From an uncultured Oligoflexia bacterium (GTDB lineage Bacteria; Bdellovibrionota; Bacteriovoracia; Bacteriovoracales; Bacteriovoracaceae), in contig CAJXPQ010000001.1 in assembly GCA_913058265.1 (NCBI GenBank), positions 310,001 to 374,000 on the forward strand: 64,000 bases of DNA, written 5' to 3'. The notes beneath the pieces were generated by a model. That model did not search any database. It had not been told where the DNA came from and was given only the letters and a program-made list of their open reading frames with translations. Each line of letters starts with the position of its first letter. Position 1 is the first letter of the stretch. The translations under genes and the position numbers were made by a program. Positions 40,490 through 49,146 of the stretch are shown one piece after another.

Positions 40490-41875
40490 CTATGGAATAC
40501 AGAACATTTGCGTTTGCGTACAACCCATTACTGCTGACTGATCCCCACAGGCAGACCCTTCTGGATACGGACATATATTAGGTCCTCCGCCACCGGTTTG
40601 GCCCTGGCCCATCTCATTTCCAATTCCAGCGCCAATTGCTTGCCATGTACAGTTTCCATTTGGTGAACCATCCAAAGACCTACACAGAGATGCAACGACT
40701 TTAGCTTTTGAACAACTCGCGTCTCCACCTGCCGCTTCACAATTCCATAAATAATTTGTAACGCTATCGTTAATATTATTTAGTGTTCCAATTTCACATG
40801 AATTATTTATAGTATTGTCGCATCGACCAAAAGGCAAAATAGGCTTCACTTCTGAACATGAGACATCACCTCCGCCAAATGTTCCTAAACAACTCCACAA
40901 ATACTCTGTAGCTGAATCAGCAATATTATTTAAAATTCCACTTGAACAAATATTATTTGAAGCGCCACAAGTTCCAGAGACTGGGGTCGGAGGTGCTCCT
41001 GCAAAACGACAAGCAGCATTTGTTCCAGTTCCCGTTCCCCGGCAAGTCCAAAGCCTAGTTGGTAAGGCATCAGGAAGATCTTCTAAAGTTCCAGATAAAC
41101 AAGAGTTTTCTAATGCTCCACATGTTCCGTTTGAATTGACATAAGATGGCGCGGCAGGAGGCGTAAAGCACGTTAAGTTACCATTTACATCATACCCCTG
41201 AAAATAAATTCCAGCATCACAAGACTTTCCTGAGTCAACAACATTACACTTACCACTTCCCCAACTTAACCAATTATGTGCATCACAGAAACTCTTTTTG
41301 GCCATTGCCATCACATTAGAGTAGTCACAAATAATATCACCATCAACCTCAAAGCACATTTTCTCCAAGAGACCAGAAGCAATATCCTCAATACCTTTAT
41401 TACAATCAACAATCTTTCCTGTGTCCACATTCACATTCGGATAAAAATAAATGGTCCTAGTAATAGCCTGAATAGCATTCGCTTTTTTAGCAAGTTCAAA
41501 CTCAACTTTAAATTCAGCTCTTCCACTATTAACGTTGTATTGTCCAATATACATTCTCTTAATACGGTAAGTTCCAGATAAAATTGGCTCACCTGCTTCA
41601 AATAAGACAGTTCCGGTTTGAGTTTCTAGTTGGAGGATATTCTCTTCAATATTTACAGATTTTGTTTCAAGGTTTTGAGAACAGGACCTAGGTTCTTGTA
41701 AAACAGCATTAATTGAGACTAAAGCTTTAGCTAAGTCAATTGTCCCCTTAGCTCCGGTAACCGATTGATTCTGAATTTTACTTAGATTCATGATCCCAAC
41801 AATAACAACGCCTAAAATAGCGGTAGAAGTTATGATTTCGACAAGTGAGAATCCTTTATTATTTTTTAGCGACAT
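40490..41875 (-). CDS. Prepilin-like protein C, with 3 Cys-rich repeats
   Basis: 461 aa. The prepilin peptidase site is KG|FSLVE with Glu5, then a hydrophobic helix. A pilin-like globular part (residues ~30-215) is followed by three ~48-residue repeats of the pattern C-x5-10-C-x-[GS]-x7-8-D-x6-W-x-C-x-G-x4-C (each containing LWTC, LWSC or LWNC), and a Cys-rich tail (NGNCTW, PNICPYP, CTQTQMFC). It overlaps gene B by 10 bases, so coupled translation is likely. The repeats resemble secreted or surface Cys-rich repeats, probably disulfide-bonded. Likely a minor pilin with an adhesive tail. Confidence 0.8.
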   Translation of the reverse strand: MSLKNNKGFSLVEIITSTAILGVVIVGIMNLSKIQNQSVTGAKGTIDLAKALVSINAVLQEPRSCSQNLETKSVNIEENILQLETQTGTVLFEAGEPILSGTYRIKRMYIGQYNVNSGRAEFKVEFELAKKANAIQAITRTIYFYPNVNVDTGKIVDCNKGIEDIASGLLEKMCFEVDGDIICDYSNVMAMAKKSFCDAHNWLSWGSGKCNVVDSGKSCDAGIYFQGYDVNGNLTCFTPPAAPSYVNSNGTCGALENSCLSGTLEDLPDALPTRLWTCRGTGTGTNAACRFAGAPPTPVSGTCGASNNICSSGILNNIADSATEYLWSCLGTFGGGDVSCSEVKPILPFGRCDNTINNSCEIGTLNNINDSVTNYLWNCEAAGGDASCSKAKVVASLCRSLDGSPNGNCTWQAIGAGIGNEMGQGQTGGGGPNICPYPEGSACGDQSAVMGCTQTQMFCIP

Positions 41876-42669
41876 AGTATGGCCCCAACAGTAGAGAACC
41901 CATAAGCATATTCATTTGCTCCAGAACAACTTTCCGTAGAGTGAGCTTTATGGATATCACAAAACTCTGTTGAGAGATTAAAGTTGCCAGGTTCACCTGT
42001 AATATCATTACATATAGAAATTTTTATTCTTTTCTCAACTTCAATAATTGACTGAGCACAATTCATTCCAACAAAGTCTGATCCAAAAGTATTTTGACAA
42101 ATTCTCTCCATGATAATTTCATACATGGCAGCTCTGTCGAGGTTACAAGCTACAACAGCACCGGATTCAAGTCCGACAGGAACCATAATTTGTCTCTTAA
42201 ATATTTTTGATTTATCCGAAAATTCGTGGGCATTGTCTCTTGCTATAATTTCAAGCTCTACAGGTAAAATTCCGGCTTCACTCGTATTATCTAGTGCAAC
42301 AAGTGGCAGTGTGACTAAGCTTAAAATTTTGACCTTTCCAAATTCTTTGCCGGCATTATAAATTGTCTTTCCAAACTTAGTCTCCATAACATTCGTTACA
42401 GGATTTAGCTCTTTGATTGCGCTTCTAATCTCTACTTGAGATCCAGTGGCTAAACCAAGAAGTTGTTTACAGCCACCACTAGACAATAGATAAGATGAAA
42501 TAGAAGACTCAAGGCTTAATACCTCAGAGGATTTTTCAAAGTTTTTCATACCTCGATTAGTTGTTTCAAGTAACTTCATTGTTCCCAATGATAAAACACC
42601 AATTAGCCCGACCGCTATAACGATCTCCATCAATGACATGCCTCTAGAATTTAAAAATTTTTTAATCAT
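41866..42669 (-). CDS. Prepilin-like protein B
   Basis: 267 aa with a prepilin site RG|MSLME (Glu5 present) and an N-terminal hydrophobic helix, like GspI/GspJ or PilV/PilW minor pilins. The C-terminal half has conserved Cys (NCAQS, ICNDITG, FCDIHK, ESCSG, ILCR), so it should be disulfide-bonded. It starts 5 bases after gene A ends and overlaps C by 10 bases. It aligns with B' along its full length. Confidence 0.82.
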   Translation of the reverse strand: MIKKFLNSRGMSLMEIVIAVGLIGVLSLGTMKLLETTNRGMKNFEKSSEVLSLESSISSYLLSSGGCKQLLGLATGSQVEIRSAIKELNPVTNVMETKFGKTIYNAGKEFGKVKILSLVTLPLVALDNTSEAGILPVELEIIARDNAHEFSDKSKIFKRQIMVPVGLESGAVVACNLDRAAMYEIIMERICQNTFGSDFVGMNCAQSIIEVEKRIKISICNDITGEPGNFNLSTEFCDIHKAHSTESCSGANEYAYGFSTVGAILCR

Positions 42670-42674
42670 ATTAT

Positions 42675-44840
42675 CTACTTATTATGTACTAAGAAGCCAT
42701 TTGCAAAATAATCACGGCTTCCATCTAGTTCAAAGTTAAATACATCTTCATCAGTATCAGTTGCACCAATAGTTAACACTTCTTCATATGAATTATCCTT
42801 AACTATAAAATCACCGACCTGAAGTATTGATATATGCAGACTTGGATTAATCTTCATTGCAAGCTTAGGATTAAATGCACTCCAGCCTTTTAGAGTCATA
42901 AATGGATGCCCTTCAGTCACAAAATAATCACTACCATTTATGGAATACTTTAAACCTCTATGTGGGCTTGGCTTAAGTTTTAATACTTTATTAATATTTC
43001 CATTTGAACCAATAAGTGTATCACCAACTTTGACATCTTCGATACTTTTAAAGTTTCCGTTGGCCATAGTGATCATTGTTCCAGCAATAAAACATTGAGT
43101 ATAACTACTTCCACATTTAACAGCTTTGTTTGAAGGACACTCTTTGCCACCTCCAGATGCAGGCCTACTAATAGATGATAAGCGACAGCTCTTATATCTA
43201 GTATGAGTTCCGGGTATACCTGCCAATCTATCGTCTGAGACTTTACAAGGACCACAAGAATTATATACACCGATACAATTCACAGGATTTACAGGAATAG
43301 CAGGACAACCTGCAGTTGAGCTACTAGCAGGCCTCCCACCAGCACAAAAGCCCGGAAAAGGACATGTAACAGATCTTGTTTTCGTACCAGAGCGACAAGC
43401 AACCCATGCACCAACATTCCAAGTCCAACTACATGTATTTGATCCAGTCCATTTAATTATTCCTCGATCAACCATACAGTCTGCTCGACAACGGCCACCT
43501 GAGGCACCAGCATTATTACAAGCAAAAGAAGTCGTGTCACCTAATGTACCATTAGGCCATCTACAACCAGGTCCATAAACACCACCATAACAAGTACAAT
43601 CCCTTGTTCCAGTTACTGTGCGAGTTAAACCATCACAACTTCTCGTTTGGGTAAAGCTAGATCCAGCACAAATAGTGTTTGTACTTGGAGACCATACAAT
43701 AGGCTGAGTACCCGTAGCGGTGCGAGTAGTACCATCACATGTTTTTATTTGAGTAAAATTAGTACCAGAACAAACAGTATTAACTATAGGAGTCCAAACA
43801 ATTGGAGCTGTCCCCGTATTAGTTCTTGTATTTCCGCAACCATTACTCTGAGTAAAGCTTGCACCTAAACAAGTCGATGCTGGGGATGCTCCCCAAGGAC
43901 AACAGGTATCGTTTATAAGAGTTCCCCTTGGACACTCTCTGTCACAATGATCAGTTCCTAGATCAAGACCAAAGCAAACATTCGTCGTACTTGGGCATGG
44001 CCTTGGAACACAGCTACAAATTAATTCACCAGAGGTTGTAAAGCCATCAACAACCCAGTTCTGATGTGCAGTCCCTCTTAGATCTGTAAGATCTCCCCTC
44101 CTACAAGTTTTTCCTTTAAAAGGGTGAACACAACTCTTATTTTGTAGTGGACTACATAGATCTTTTTCAACGTTAAGAGAGACATTTTCTGAAATTCCCA
44201 TACACATACCTGTAGCAGGGTCCATAGTTCCCTTGAAATCTCTACAAGCTTCGGCGTATGCAGTAAGTGCATTATCTCCAAGATTACTCATACAAAGCTC
44301 AACATTATTATCTCTTGTGATTAGCATTAGCTCAATAAACTCTTTCTTTGTATGCATTGAGAAACTTGTATTTTCAGAATTATTTCTATAAGGCTTAAGT
44401 GTAACTTCTAACTGAGCTTTAGATAATTTCGTTCCACTAGCAGGTGTGAAACCAAGTAACTTTAAACCTTTAATAACATAGCCACCGTTATGAATATATC
44501 TGGATGGAGCAGAGTTTATTTCAGCTTCAGTAGTAGAATATGTAACAATTCTATACATTGGCAATCCAACTTGATCTTTAATACCTTGAGCAAATGACAT
44601 ACCTGTTGTTAAAGCTCCATTTTGAGCTAAAGTATTTTTACAAACAACGGGATTTTTAAAAATATTTTTTAAATCACCAACAAACTGGCCTATCTGAGCA
44701 CGTTGTGTGAGGGAGCTATTTTCTTTCGTTTGAGTTTGGCTCATTTTCATAACACCAGCCCCCACAGCTAGCACTGCCGCGCCAATCATCATGACTTGGA
44801 GCATTGAAGCTCCGGTCGAATTCTTTATGAGTTTTATCAT
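42675..44840 (-). CDS. Large prepilin-like protein A with C-terminal Hint domain
   Basis: 721 aa. The N-terminal prepilin-like signal is TG|ASMLQ, with Gln at position 5 in place of Glu, as in GspK-type tip pseudopilins lacking Glu5. A pilin-like domain follows (to ~residue 230), then a Cys-rich part with three ~29-residue repeats ([FY]TQ...C...TRT.TGT.PIVW.P), a TSP1-like segment (WNVGAWVACRSGTKTRSVTC) and a complete Hint domain, residues 583-721 (43094-42678). This has Cys583 in TQCFIAGT, VGD, TEGHPF with the block-B His, and a C-terminal YFANGFLVHNK. Only Lys follows the final HN, so there is no real C-extein: expected chemistry is thioester formation and cleavage, not splicing. The A' paralogue lacks the Hint domain. 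Confidence 0.85.
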   Translation of the reverse strand: MIKLIKNSTGASMLQVMMIGAAVLAVGAGVMKMSQTQTKENSSLTQRAQIGQFVGDLKNIFKNPVVCKNTLAQNGALTTGMSFAQGIKDQVGLPMYRIVTYSTTEAEINSAPSRYIHNGGYVIKGLKLLGFTPASGTKLSKAQLEVTLKPYRNNSENTSFSMHTKKEFIELMLITRDNNVELCMSNLGDNALTAYAEACRDFKGTMDPATGMCMGISENVSLNVEKDLCSPLQNKSCVHPFKGKTCRRGDLTDLRGTAHQNWVVDGFTTSGELICSCVPRPCPSTTNVCFGLDLGTDHCDRECPRGTLINDTCCPWGASPASTCLGASFTQSNGCGNTRTNTGTAPIVWTPIVNTVCSGTNFTQIKTCDGTTRTATGTQPIVWSPSTNTICAGSSFTQTRSCDGLTRTVTGTRDCTCYGGVYGPGCRWPNGTLGDTTSFACNNAGASGGRCRADCMVDRGIIKWTGSNTCSWTWNVGAWVACRSGTKTRSVTCPFPGFCAGGRPASSSTAGCPAIPVNPVNCIGVYNSCGPCKVSDDRLAGIPGTHTRYKSCRLSSISRPASGGGKECPSNKAVKCGSSYTQCFIAGTMITMANGNFKSIEDVKVGDTLIGSNGNINKVLKLKPSPHRGLKYSINGSDYFVTEGHPFMTLKGWSAFNPKLAMKINPSLHISILQVGDFIVKDNSYEEVLTIGATDTDEDVFNFELDGSRDYFANGFLVHNK

Positions 44841-44900
44841 AACTAATAGTAAAAATTTATAAAGAATATGAAAAGGTATAAATCAGGCTAATTGGCTTAT

Positions 44901-46820
44901 TTATATCGCATAATTGTTAGGAACAGTACTGGGAGTTAAGTTTGAAGGTCCAGGTGGTGGATTAGGCGTTGAAGGCAGAGGTTCAGAGCATGTTTTACTT
45001 GCTCCCCCATTTGAGCCAACACACTCCCATTTATACTCTGTTGTCGTATCTGCGATATCACGAAAGCTTCCAGCTAAACACTTATTTACTGAAGAGTCAC
45101 AGGATCCATCAATTTTAGGTGACGAGCTTGACCCACACCACGCGCTGAGTTCATGGCAATAAAACTTACTCGAATAAAGTCCATTTGGAGAAGCTTTATT
45201 ATCACACCATGAACAATTTGAAGTAATTCCTCTAACGGTTCCATCGCACACTTTACTAGGTTGCATTCGACCTGGGGTTGTCTGAGACCCAGTTGAGTAA
45301 GAACACACTCCAGGGTAGGAAGTACCACCGCATGTTGGCGAGATAAATTTATTAGTCTCAATTGCTCTCCAACTATATAAGGCTGATTTTTGGGCACACG
45401 TTGGGTAAGTAGTTAAGCATAATGCTTCTGTCGCGAAACTATCTAAGCAAACTGTTTCTTTTGTAAGTGAACAGCTTTCATGTCCACCTCCGCCAGACCC
45501 CTTACAGTTCCACATAAAATTTGAATCTGTATCTGCGACATTCTCTAAATTTCCTGATGCACATGTATTCTCAGTAATTGTAGGAGTCACACACTTCCCC
45601 TGAACTGGTGCCGACTTAGAAACAGAGCAACTTACATCATTACCAGCTGGACTCCCATTACAAACCCATAAGTAATTCTCAGTTGAGTCGCCTGTATCAT
45701 TAAGAGCACCTGCAATACAATCATTGTTAACAATACCACAAAGGGGAATGACATTCGCTAAAGGCTTTTTTTCACTGCAAGACATATCAGCACCACCATT
45801 TACACCAAGACAATTCCATCGATAATGAGTGATTGTTCCTGCAATTGAAGAGTCACTAATTCCCGATAAGCAGTCACTTGCTTTTTCTGGCCGGGAGCAC
45901 TCACCATCTATGACTTTGGATCCAATTGATTTTTTACAAGCTATATTAGATCCAGAACCAGATCCATTACAATTCCATTTAAACTGCCCCGAAGAATCAG
46001 GTAAATCTTGTAAGTCCCCCGTTAAACAAGAATTTGCATCTACTCCACACTTACCAGAGTAGTTTTCATCACTGGTCTTTGTTGGTTTAAGCCCACAATC
46101 TAATTCTCCGTGACTATTATAACCAAGAAAAAATAAGGGCTTCCCTCCAGAGAATCCACAAATTTTTCCAGAGTCCAAAACCTTACACTTTTTATTAACA
46201 TCATCCCAGCCGATCCAAGGATTCTCTTTGCAGAATCTCTCCTTAGCCTCTTTTAGAATATTGATATAAGTACATGTCCCAGCAGGGTCAACATCAAAGC
46301 ACATTTTCTTCAATAGACCCTCGGCCCTATTAGCTACGCCTTTAAGACAACTTACTATGTTGCCTGATTCGACCTTAGGATAAAAATAAAGAGTCTTTAT
46401 CATTCCCTTAGTTAAGTTAGCTTGCTTAACAAGTTCAAAATGAACTTTAAACTCTGCCCGACCAGTTAAAACATCATACTTTCCCACCCACATTTTCAAA
46501 ACCTTATAAGCGCCATTTCCAAATGTTTCATTCTTTGAAAATAGATTTACAGTTCCGCTCGATCCAACAAGGTGGTGAATTTCTTCATCAAGGTTTACAG
46601 GTGTGCCATTAAAGTTTTGAGAACATGATAATGGCTCTACTAGTAGAGAGTTTATAGAAATTAAAGCACTTAATAAGTCCCCTGCTCCCTTACTTGATGT
46701 AGTAGAAACCTGCTGCAGTTTTCCTATATTTAGCACGCCAATGACAACGACGCCCAATAATCCCATTGTGACCATAACTTCAACTAAGGAGAATCCTGAT
46801 TTTTTCCAACCTATCTGCAT
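44901..46820 (-). CDS. Prepilin-like protein C', with 5 Cys-rich repeats
   Basis: 639 aa, paralogue of the 461-aa C protein. Prepilin site SG|FSLVE with Glu5. The pilin-like part aligns with C (LKKMCFDV, CKGV, LDSGKICGF). It has five repeats of the same ~48-residue Cys/Trp module (for example YSGKCGVDANSCLTG and YKWECVGSNGGASKTCS), a separate Cys-rich insert (residues ~455-560) and a Pro/Ser-rich tail (PLPSTPNPPPGPSNLTPS). The difference from C is mostly extra repeats plus this insert. Start overlaps B' by 10 bases. Confidence 0.8.
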   Translation of the reverse strand: MQIGWKKSGFSLVEVMVTMGLLGVVVIGVLNIGKLQQVSTTSSKGAGDLLSALISINSLLVEPLSCSQNFNGTPVNLDEEIHHLVGSSGTVNLFSKNETFGNGAYKVLKMWVGKYDVLTGRAEFKVHFELVKQANLTKGMIKTLYFYPKVESGNIVSCLKGVANRAEGLLKKMCFDVDPAGTCTYINILKEAKERFCKENPWIGWDDVNKKCKVLDSGKICGFSGGKPLFFLGYNSHGELDCGLKPTKTSDENYSGKCGVDANSCLTGDLQDLPDSSGQFKWNCNGSGSGSNIACKKSIGSKVIDGECSRPEKASDCLSGISDSSIAGTITHYRWNCLGVNGGADMSCSEKKPLANVIPLCGIVNNDCIAGALNDTGDSTENYLWVCNGSPAGNDVSCSVSKSAPVQGKCVTPTITENTCASGNLENVADTDSNFMWNCKGSGGGGHESCSLTKETVCLDSFATEALCLTTYPTCAQKSALYSWRAIETNKFISPTCGGTSYPGVCSYSTGSQTTPGRMQPSKVCDGTVRGITSNCSWCDNKASPNGLYSSKFYCHELSAWCGSSSSPKIDGSCDSSVNKCLAGSFRDIADTTTEYKWECVGSNGGASKTCSEPLPSTPNPPPGPSNLTPSTVPNNYAI

Positions 46821-47608
46821 AGTAACCGTCCATTAGCATCAAAGCCATATGCTAATTCAGAAGCATCTGGACAACCTTCTCCAACGTGAGCGTTATCAAT
46901 ATGACAGTACTCTCCATTGAAGTGACCGCCTTCACCAGTGATATCATCACAAATGGAGCTTTTAATTTTCTTCTCGACCTCAAGTACAGCCTGAGTACAG
47001 TCAATACCATCAATGTTTATACCAAGAACCTCTTCGCATATTTTTTTCGTTATTGTATCGTATAAAATACTTGTTTCCAGACTACAATCTTGAATGACAC
47101 CGTTATCCATAGTAACGCCAAGGAGAACGACTCGCTTAAAAACACGAGAATCTGCACTGAAAGCATTTGTTTTATCTCTAGCGGTCATTACTATCTCTAC
47201 TGGCATCATTCCAACTTTCTGATCGACATCTGTACTCTCTAGATTCAGAAGTCTTATATGATCAATTCTAATTTTTCCAATTTCTAAACCAGCAGTAAAA
47301 AGAACACGTCCATATTTTTGTTTTATGGATCTTGTAGCGGGATCATACTCTTGGGTAACTCCTTTAATCTCAATATCCTCTCCTGCAGCCTTACCAACAA
47401 GCTGTTTGCAACCAGCATTACTAATAAGGAAACTTTTAATTTTTGTATGTACTGATAAGACTTCTGAAGATTTTTCGAAGTCCTTATTTGAAACATTTAA
47501 TCCCTGCATAAGCCTCATACTTCCCAAAGCAATAAGACCGACCAAACCGACCGCCACAACGATCTCCATCAAACTCATACCTCTTTCATTTGAAGTCATC
47601 ATGGACAT
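46811..47608 (-). CDS. Prepilin-like protein B'
   Basis: 265 aa, full-length paralogue of B. Prepilin site RG|MSLME, Glu5 present. Shared with B: EKSSEVLS, GCKQL, MPVEIVMTARD (LPVELEIIARD in B) and the C-terminal ICDDITGEGG region. Overlaps A' and C' by 10 bases each. Confidence 0.82.
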   Translation of the reverse strand: MSMMTSNERGMSLMEIVVAVGLVGLIALGSMRLMQGLNVSNKDFEKSSEVLSVHTKIKSFLISNAGCKQLVGKAAGEDIEIKGVTQEYDPATRSIKQKYGRVLFTAGLEIGKIRIDHIRLLNLESTDVDQKVGMMPVEIVMTARDKTNAFSADSRVFKRVVLLGVTMDNGVIQDCSLETSILYDTITKKICEEVLGINIDGIDCTQAVLEVEKKIKSSICDDITGEGGHFNGEYCHIDNAHVGEGCPDASELAYGFDANGRLLCR

Positions 47609-49146
47609 GACTCCGAGGAGCTAGGTTGAGCTCCAGCGCAACCTGCATAAAATCCACAAGAAACTCTTCTCGTCTTTTTACCATCATTACAAGAGCCCCA
47701 TGGTCCTGCCGTCCATGAAAACTTACAAGAATTATTACCACTCCAAACAACTCGCCCACTTTTGTAAACACAAGAAGCCCGACATCTTCCAGAAACAACT
47801 TTTGGATGAGAACAAACAGAGCTTGTTCTTCCTCCAAGTTTTCCTTGCGGCCACCAACATCCTGTTCCATAAGGGCCACCATAACAAGTACAGTCGAGAG
47901 TTCCTTTAACTACTCTTGTAGCACCATCACAAGTTCTGGTCTGGACCATCGATCGCCCAGCACATACTGTGTTTGTAGCAGGTCCCCAGATAATAGGAGC
48001 TGTGCCTCGAGCTGTTCGCTTGGACTGATCACATGTTTTTGTTTGCTGAAAAGAAACTCCTAAACACTGTGAGGATTGGGCGGGCACCCAATTTATAGGC
48101 ATGATTCCGGTATTAAGTCTTGTGTCTCCACATTTTACACCTCTTCTTTCATTACTTTGAGTATAGTTTGTACCAGCACAAACATTACTAGGTCTAGGGG
48201 CCCAACTACAACAAGAATCATTAGTTAGAGTTCCTACAGGACAATCATTAAAGCATTTATCGTCTCCTAGAGACTCTCCAAAACATACGTTTGTAGTTGA
48301 TGGACAAGGCTGAGGAACACATTCACAGTTTACCTTTCCATTAGTACCAAAGCTATCTACAAACCAGTTTCCATGATTAGCACCATCCTTGCCTAAATTA
48401 GAGTTACACGATTTATTTTTATAAGGATGTTCGCATGTAACAGTCCCATCTGAACTACACATTTGCGAGGTTGTATTATCAATAATTTTTGTAGCGACTC
48501 CAGAGCATATTCCAGTGGTTGTATCAAAATACCCACCGAGCCCAATACAAACATCAATAAGAGCATCACGGGATTTGTCGCCCTCATCGCTTAAACAAAG
48601 CTCAATGACATTATCTCTAGTCACTAGCAAAATAGGAATCATCTCTTTTTTTGTATAAGAAAAAAGCGTCCTCTGCTTAGAGTTGGCCAGCTCGAAAGGC
48701 TTTATCGATACTTCGAGTATAGCTTGAGTAAAGCTCACTCCTGCAGATTCTTGATAATTAGTAAGTCTTATATCATGAATCTCATTTAATCCATTATATT
48801 GGTAAGTTGATCTATTATACTGAAGGTCGGTTTGTGAGGTCGAACTTGTCAAAACTTTATATATTGTCTGACCGCTAGGATTGAGAATACCTTTATCTAG
48901 AGTCGCATCGGAAGATAAAGAGCTTAATTGACCAAGTGTACTGGTACAGACCGTCGGATCACTTAGAGCGGTCTGAATATCTTTGACCAAAGATTGGACT
49001 TCTTGTTTTTGTAATACAGTGCGATTTTCTAGGCTTTGATTTTGAGTCACTTTTACCAAACCACCAGCAGCTGCAACTACGAGGGATCCCATCAATAGCA
49101 TTTGAAGAATGGAAGCTCCACGTGAGCTTTTAAGAAGGTTTTTCAT
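47599..49146 (-). CDS. Large prepilin-like protein A' without Hint domain
   Basis: 515 aa. Prepilin-like signal RG|ASILQ (Gln5). The pilin-like part and Cys-rich repeats align with A (CPSTTNVCFG, CTCYGG.YG.GC, and the TSP1-like WTAGPWGSCNDGKKTRRVSC), but the protein ends ...SSESCP, where A goes on to a second Cys-rich segment and the Hint domain. It is the first gene of its cassette, 43 bases after the hppD stop. Probably the tip or large minor pilin of one of the two pili or pseudopili. Confidence 0.82.
   Translation of the reverse strand: MKNLLKSSRGASILQMLLMGSLVVAAAGGLVKVTQNQSLENRTVLQKQEVQSLVKDIQTALSDPTVCTSTLGQLSSLSSDATLDKGILNPSGQTIYKVLTSSTSQTDLQYNRSTYQYNGLNEIHDIRLTNYQESAGVSFTQAILEVSIKPFELANSKQRTLFSYTKKEMIPILLVTRDNVIELCLSDEGDKSRDALIDVCIGLGGYFDTTTGICSGVATKIIDNTTSQMCSSDGTVTCEHPYKNKSCNSNLGKDGANHGNWFVDSFGTNGKVNCECVPQPCPSTTNVCFGESLGDDKCFNDCPVGTLTNDSCCSWAPRPSNVCAGTNYTQSNERRGVKCGDTRLNTGIMPINWVPAQSSQCLGVSFQQTKTCDQSKRTARGTAPIIWGPATNTVCAGRSMVQTRTCDGATRVVKGTLDCTCYGGPYGTGCWWPQGKLGGRTSSVCSHPKVVSGRCRASCVYKSGRVVWSGNNSCKFSWTAGPWGSCNDGKKTRRVSCGFYAGCAGAQPSSSESCP

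Follow-up and report, generated by a model that had tools for sequence, protein, structure and literature searches.

The window, a 64,000-nucleotide stretch of contig CAJXPQ010000001.1 from an uncultured Oligoflexia bacterium (Bdellovibrionota; Bacteriovoracaceae), holds at 40490-49146 a three-gene minor-pilin cassette duplicated in tandem (A'B'C', then ABC) between an HPPD-like gene and NIF3. Its genes, and the parts of protein A discussed below, are as follows in window coordinates (a slash separates leader and mature sequence).

47599-49146, minus strand: A', paralogue of A without the Hint domain, Gln5; 43% identity to A residues 1-513
46811-47608, minus strand: B', paralogue of B, prepilin-like, Glu5
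44901-46820, minus strand: C', paralogue of C, Glu5; N_methyl 25.1 bits, above cut-off
42675-44840, minus strand: protein A, open reading frame from ATG to stop, 721 aa, with prepilin-like N-terminus, Cys-rich ectodomain, and C-terminal Hint domain
44736-44840, minus strand: type III (prepilin-like) leader of A, MIKLIKNSTG/ASMLQ..., in which mature position 5 is Gln instead of Glu (motif scan)
43302-44195, minus strand: Cys-rich ectodomain of A, about residues 216-513 (from the sequence; without Pfam match)
43095-43301, minus strand: residues 514-582 of A, between the end of the A' homology and the Hint domain (BLASTP of A against A')
42675-43094, minus strand: Hint (BIL-type) domain, residues 583-721 plus stop (Pfam, PDB profile, AlphaFold2/Foldseek)
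43092-43094, minus strand: Cys583, the Cys1 of Hint block A and putative nucleophile of an N-S acyl shift (conserved in alignments)
42900-42917, minus strand: block B, T642-E-G-H645-P-F (TxxH; conserved in alignments)
42678-42743, minus strand: blocks F and G, VFN702...H719-N720-K721 (alignments and +1 statistics)
41866-42669, minus strand: protein B, prepilin-like, Glu5; N_methyl 17.1 bits (below cut-off), TIGR02532 16.4 bits (above cut-off)
40490-41875, minus strand: protein C, prepilin, Glu5, Cys-rich; N_methyl 24.4 and TIGR02532 18.5 bits, both above cut-off

The gene for B starts a few bases past the end of A, and predicted promoters and terminators at the locus did not rise above shuffled sequence. 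In a sister species (genome G001, locus L132), the HPPD-like gene and NIF3 flank a Hint-less pilin set in the order B-C-A-A. The alignment with A' covers residues 1-513 of A, in keeping with the initial annotation, which had A' ending ahead of the Hint domain, and a six-frame profile search found no Hint remnant in A' or at the sister-species locus. Absent from both, the Hint domain is a variable module at a conserved pilin locus, and it may have been gained in the window species or lost elsewhere. No second match to it was found elsewhere in the genome at E <= 1. A foreign base composition of the module was rejected, since its GC (0.33) lies inside the range of 417-nt slices of the protein A gene (0.317-0.456) and its GC3 is the same as in the rest.

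Protein A is probably a surface protein and a minor subunit of a type IV pilus, as far as its sequence and neighbors tell. The motif scan finds a prepilin-like motif with Gln5 at its N-terminus (KNSTG/ASMLQVMMIG), which resembles the N-termini of other prepilin-like proteins (e.g., L016, SGISLVEVIIAG, E 3e-7), including one encoded elsewhere in the same genome. Its identity as a pilin is based on this motif, the tandem A'B'C'-ABC cassette, and the N-terminal matches to prepilin-like proteins. The earlier label "pilin-like" is thus less secure than the Hint domain: motif and gene context favor it, the N_methyl HMM has no match in protein A itself, and the head model, a long helix followed by strands, is of low confidence (pLDDT 69.8) and matched nothing in the PDB. 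Between residue 12 and the Hint domain, protein A has 38 Cys. TSP1-like repeats, read by eye in the Cys-rich ectodomain of A, A', and L025, were dropped after giving no Pfam match even at E 10.

By sequence and predicted structure, residues 583-721 are a real, complete Hint domain, well beyond chance. The C-terminal layout of protein A is TQ-C583-FIAGTMITMANG...T642-EG-H645-PF...VFN702-FELDGSRDYFANGFLV-H719-N720-K721-stop, beginning with TQ-C583-FIAGT and ending with FLV-H719-N720-K721; the span and the motifs of the initial annotation (TQCFIAGT, TEGHPF, FLVHNK) are exact, 42675-43094 running from C583 through the stop codon. Pfam Hom_end_hint scores 34.6 bits on the whole protein and 37.9 on the excised domain (cut-off 32.1), and other Pfam Hint models match under their respective cut-offs. 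Matches of protein A to PDB sequences include PI-SceI, the gp41-1 intein, and a BIL domain, and a profile of 45 Hint members finds BIL2 of Tetrahymena BUBL1 as best PDB match (1.7e-17), along with the Clostridium thermocellum BIL domain (2LWY, 4e-15). The AlphaFold2 model of the excised domain (pLDDT 94.7, pTM 0.88) has the horseshoe fold of the HINT superfamily; in Foldseek, BIL2 again comes first (6y75, E 1.6e-9, TM 0.80), with gp41-1 next and hedgehog lower (TM 0.64). This model has 53 PDB matches at E <= 0.001, and all 50 listed are inteins, BIL, Vint, or hedgehog domains. Thus, the claim of a complete Hint domain at the C-terminus is borne out by Pfam, PDB sequence profiles, and the AlphaFold2 model alike, and the HMM search and structure prediction that had been proposed as checks find the key Hint positions and the fold in place. 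A match of protein A to AXH (ataxin) overlaps the domain and is taken to reflect the sequence resemblance of the two folds.

The residues expected of a catalytic Hint domain are conserved among its relatives. We aligned the window domain with 13 relatives from a motif-free scan of the phylum, chosen as complete domains, and found Cys1, the T..H of block B, the block-F Asn, and the terminal His-Asn to be invariant in 14/14 sequences at 32-48% identity, across families. In the wider set of 45 relatives, which spans phyla, Cys1 and the block-B His are invariant (45/45) and the block-B Thr is conserved in at least 90%; conservation of the C-terminal motif is partly built into this set, which comes from a collection searched with the pattern YxA[DN][GE][YFI]xVHN. 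Conservation of His-Asn is supported independently of any pattern, since the phylum scan, which used none, gave 29 matches at E <= 2e-9, of which 28 extend to the end of the query. Protein A has the residues that characterize the HINT superfamily (Cys or Ser at position 1, here C583, and block-B T..H, here T642/H645), together with two A-type BIL features: His-Asn at the domain end (H719-N720) and a residue other than Cys, Ser, or Thr at +1 (K721). These three residues are found at +1 in 6/87 cellular and 5/53 viral relatives. By the marks that were assessed, both read from its sequence, the domain is a candidate A-type BIL. Class 1 inteins usually have Asp at block F, where the family of protein A has Asn (N702 in A).

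The initial annotation had also read the single Lys after His-Asn as the absence of a C-extein. The non-nucleophilic +1 residue agrees with that reading, but the position holds more than an absence, for Lys is mostly kept. None of 87 non-redundant cellular relatives stops at the Asn, 12 stop at Asn+1 (11 with Lys, 1 with Tyr), and 62 have Lys at +1; the corresponding counts in an independent viral collection of 53 are 0, 8 (7 with Lys), and 39. Pooled, this gives 0/140 stopping at Asn, 20/140 stopping at Asn+1 (18 with Lys), and 101/140 with Lys at +1, and a stop directly after Asn would not have been missed because the search pattern terminates at HN. The form ending in HNK-stop is found in Bdellovibrionota, Gracilibacteria, Bacteroidota, another proteobacterium, and viral contigs, and so does not belong to a single clade. 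Since at least one residue after Asn is retained throughout the family, even in proteins ending there, either the Asn-Lys bond or the Lys is probably important, and we infer that an Asn-Xaa bond, mostly with Lys, is under selection. The conservation fits a retained Asn cyclization or a Lys acting as amine, and a hedgehog-type domain using the N-terminal bond only would give no reason to expect it; the Lys may also have a structural role. In the viral contigs (L141-L220), the HNK-type Hint is common both within long proteins and at the extreme C-terminus, and such contigs are a possible source of the module. Read with table 11, the Hint frame of the SR1 bacterium RAAC1_SR1_1 (L066:5001-5429) has two in-frame stops, which recoding of UGA in the SR1 lineage would explain, and this sequence was excluded from the alignment.

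Mapping the domain across Bdellovibrionota, we found matches to the Hint of protein A at E <= 0.01 in 45 of 369 genomes. Thirteen further prepilin-like Hint proteins occur in five GTDB families (f1, f6, f11, f17, and f19), carried by G122, G129 (two), G131, G133, G189, G223, G264 (four), G100, and G227; the prepilin-like call was made by eye for G131 and G227 and, for the rest, by motif scan or by inspection following it, and the G131 Hint is interrupted by a contig end. One more, L103, lies outside the phylum, in Omnitrophota. Six Hint-pilin N-termini have N_methyl matches, above the cut-off in L032, L033, and L055 and below it in L018, L029, and L094, and in the window and at L069, L135, L137, L139, and L140 the Hint proteins adjoin other prepilin-like genes. 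Glu5 is absent from 10 of the 14 Hint-pilins of Bdellovibrionota, including that of the window, and kept in 4; its loss was rejected as a marker of Hint-pilins, since several Hint-less neighbors lack it as well. In a quick tree of 72 Hint domains with modest support, placing the pilin label takes 7 or more changes, of which well-supported branches force 2, and the window domain does not group with other pilin Hints. These changes suggest that Hint domains were probably fused to prepilin-like proteins more than once. Most Hints of this family are found on non-pilin hosts, which within the phylum include lipoproteins (G050, G317, G319, and G322) and signal-peptide proteins, so the function of the domain need not be pilus-specific.

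Several individual cases illustrate the range of architectures. At L137 (G223:C110, 1511-5602), pilin genes stand in tandem; their N-terminal helices are nearly identical (FSLASVMVGVAIVGIVAVGTLSLF, Ser5), their C-termini apparently differ, and the last gene has the Hint, an arrangement that resembles a module-swapping or variation array. The marine Bdellovibrionales MAG G264 encodes four prepilin-like Hint proteins (L125, L094, L095, and L097), all with Gln5 and ending in HNK or HNKP. A lipoprotein family of Bdellovibrionota (L048, L050, L051, and L054; CAKQGSVL after a signal-like N-terminus) has the same Hint near the C-terminus with Val or Ile at +1, and single chains at L106:2288 and L117 have several Hint-profile matches (4 and 3 domain matches, respectively). 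Lineages with predatory or host-attached members (Patescibacteria, Omnitrophota, Bdellovibrionota, and Micavibrio) account for many of the carriers, which may be a sampling bias.

Taking these results together, the reading that we favor, with some confidence, is that protein A is a modular minor pilin whose BIL-type Hint domain makes a C-terminal thioester that is resolved by cleavage or by ligation to an amine. It is favored by the full Hint fold, the catalytic set, the absence of Cys, Ser, or Thr at +1, and the recurrent fusion to prepilin-like proteins; the Asn in place of Asp at block F and, on the pilin side, the missing N_methyl match and weak head model count against it. Protein A would be the large, Glu5-lacking member of the A-B-C minor-pilin set, perhaps at the pilus tip, as GspK-type pilins without Glu5 are located there (PMC6370729, PMC5207764). 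Modules grafted onto the C-terminus have been described for other minor pilins (PMC9934059). A tip position would not be general, since 4 of the 14 Hint-pilins keep Glu5. After export, Cys583 would attack the Gln582-Cys583 bond in an N-S acyl shift, leaving the C-terminus of the ectodomain held on the Hint as a thioester, which an amine nucleophile or water would resolve. The Hint would then depart, with or without cyclization of Asn720 at the Asn-Lys bond, and the mature pilin would terminate at Gln582 with its C-terminus freed or newly ligated. Activity, timing, tip position, partner, and the choice between cleavage and ligation are parts of this mechanism that we infer, and cleavage and ligation are rated about equal.

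Self-cleavage and thioester transfer, both raised in the initial annotation, were the right mechanisms to consider, given the complete Hint, the non-nucleophilic +1 residue, and the precedent of BIL2, which is reported to link the C-terminus of its N-extein to the epsilon-amine of a lysine, forming an isopeptide with no need of ATP (PMC8616854); for protein A, either activity would follow by analogy. As the nearest solved structure, BIL2 counts for the thioester and amine-ligation part of the favored reading. More specifically, the Hint of a tip pilin might ligate the pilin C-terminus, without ATP or sortase, to an amine of its own Lys, a neighboring subunit, its own envelope, or another cell, a tentative extension that we think unlikely. 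Transfer to the prey surface, as the annotation had proposed, finds nothing in its favor in this analysis and is speculation.

The strongest rival is plain self-removal, in which the thioester is hydrolyzed without any ligation and the Hint serves as a pro-domain to be discarded, perhaps having helped the Cys-rich ectodomain to fold or to be exported; we regard this as a serious possibility, if short of an even chance. For BIL domains, which have no nucleophile at +1, cleavage is reported as the main outcome (PMC7664689, PMC5874633, PMC7765530), and many relatives have the Hint at or near the C-terminus of unrelated secreted proteins. However, self-removal by itself leaves the constant residue after Asn, usually Lys, unexplained, and A' and the sister species manage without a Hint.

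That residue is the starting point of a second rival, in which the amine of the +1 Lys (epsilon, or alpha after Asn cyclization) takes the thioester and a single Lys replaces the Hint. We know of no demonstration of splicing or transfer with a single-residue C-extein. The prevalence of Lys at +1 (101/140 relatives, and 18 of the 20 that end at Asn+1) speaks for it, as do isopeptide formation by BIL2 (PMC8616854) and the title of a FEBS J 2013 paper, as given in the reference list of PMC7664689, on trans-splicing by a BIL domain "without nucleophilic side chains". On the other side, the Lys may be retained for the fold, and about 28% of relatives are without it, including the Bdellovibrionota lipoproteins, which have Val, Ile, or Thr. 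We hold this transfer to be rather doubtful.

An inactive Hint, retained for binding or stability, is less probable still: the Asn in place of the usual block-F Asp could point that way, activity being predicted from sequence, but Cys1, T..H, the block-F Asn, and His-Asn are retained at 32-48% identity, with Cys1 and the block-B His in 45/45 relatives. Release of a C-terminal toxin by a polymorphic-toxin (pretoxin-HINT) domain is refuted for protein A and given almost no weight, for although PT-HINT matches 32 of 45 relatives, it does not match the window Hint at E 0.01, no cargo follows K721, and the next gene, B, encodes a separate prepilin-like protein. A degenerate selfish intein is equally hard to credit despite the homology to inteins, since the domain has no homing endonuclease, sits at the C-terminus of non-conserved secreted hosts in the same architecture in many lineages, and has no downstream C-extein homologous to a conserved protein.

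The HINT superfamily and BIL-type domains are known; what appears new is the pairing with a pilin-like protein and its recurrence across the phylum. A search of the open-access literature by title and abstract found no paper on a Hint fused to a type IV pilin, an absence that is not proof. Hint domains that lack a C-extein occur widely among phage and secreted bacterial proteins; to our knowledge, no purpose has been established for them. The pilin cases offer a defined setting, a single small domain whose scissile bond can be predicted (Q582-C583), as can its products. The Lys tail, conserved and in many members just one residue long, gives a simple clue to how the whole Hint family works. 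If ligation occurs, it would bring to type IV pili a covalent chemistry independent of ATP that, as far as we know, has been described so far in Gram-positive thioester adhesins and sortase-built pili, and a tip pilin ligating to an amine would act in diderm bacteria as a pilus adhesin or cross-linker that activates itself and attaches covalently.

Among known systems, BIL domains (BIL2 of Tetrahymena BUBL1, 6Y75/6TMM; C. thermocellum, 2LWY) resemble the Hint of protein A in fold, Cys1, block B, and His-Asn end, as well as in their non-conserved hosts and the lack of Cys, Ser, or Thr at +1. However, BIL2 lies between ubiquitin-like domains, whereas the Hint of A closes a pilin-like protein, its "C-extein" being one Lys. 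The hedgehog Hog/Hint domain (1AT0) shares the C-terminal position, the expected N-S acyl shift, and possible transfer to an outside nucleophile. In contrast to hedgehog (TM 0.64), protein A ends one residue past the Hint and keeps the intein-type His-Asn end; without a sterol-recognition region, it does not belong to the Hog group. Class 1 mini-inteins (gp41-1, DnaB) share the fold and blocks A, B, F, and G but differ in block F, where A has Asn, not Asp; with a non-nucleophilic +1 residue and one Lys before the stop in place of a real C-extein, protein A is not a class 1 intein. Gram-positive thioester-domain adhesins (e.g., SfbI, PMC4450167) would be alike only if the Hint thioester is passed to an outside amine, giving covalent surface attachment; their domain is unrelated and uses an internal Cys-Gln thioester, so the likeness is an analogy. 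On the pilus side, modular minor pilins (Streptococcus sanguinis PilB/PilC; the GspK family) similarly have a large C-terminal module on a prepilin-like N-terminus within a small cassette, and GspK also lacks Glu5. Unlike their lectin or vWA modules, the module of protein A is a self-processing type of domain.
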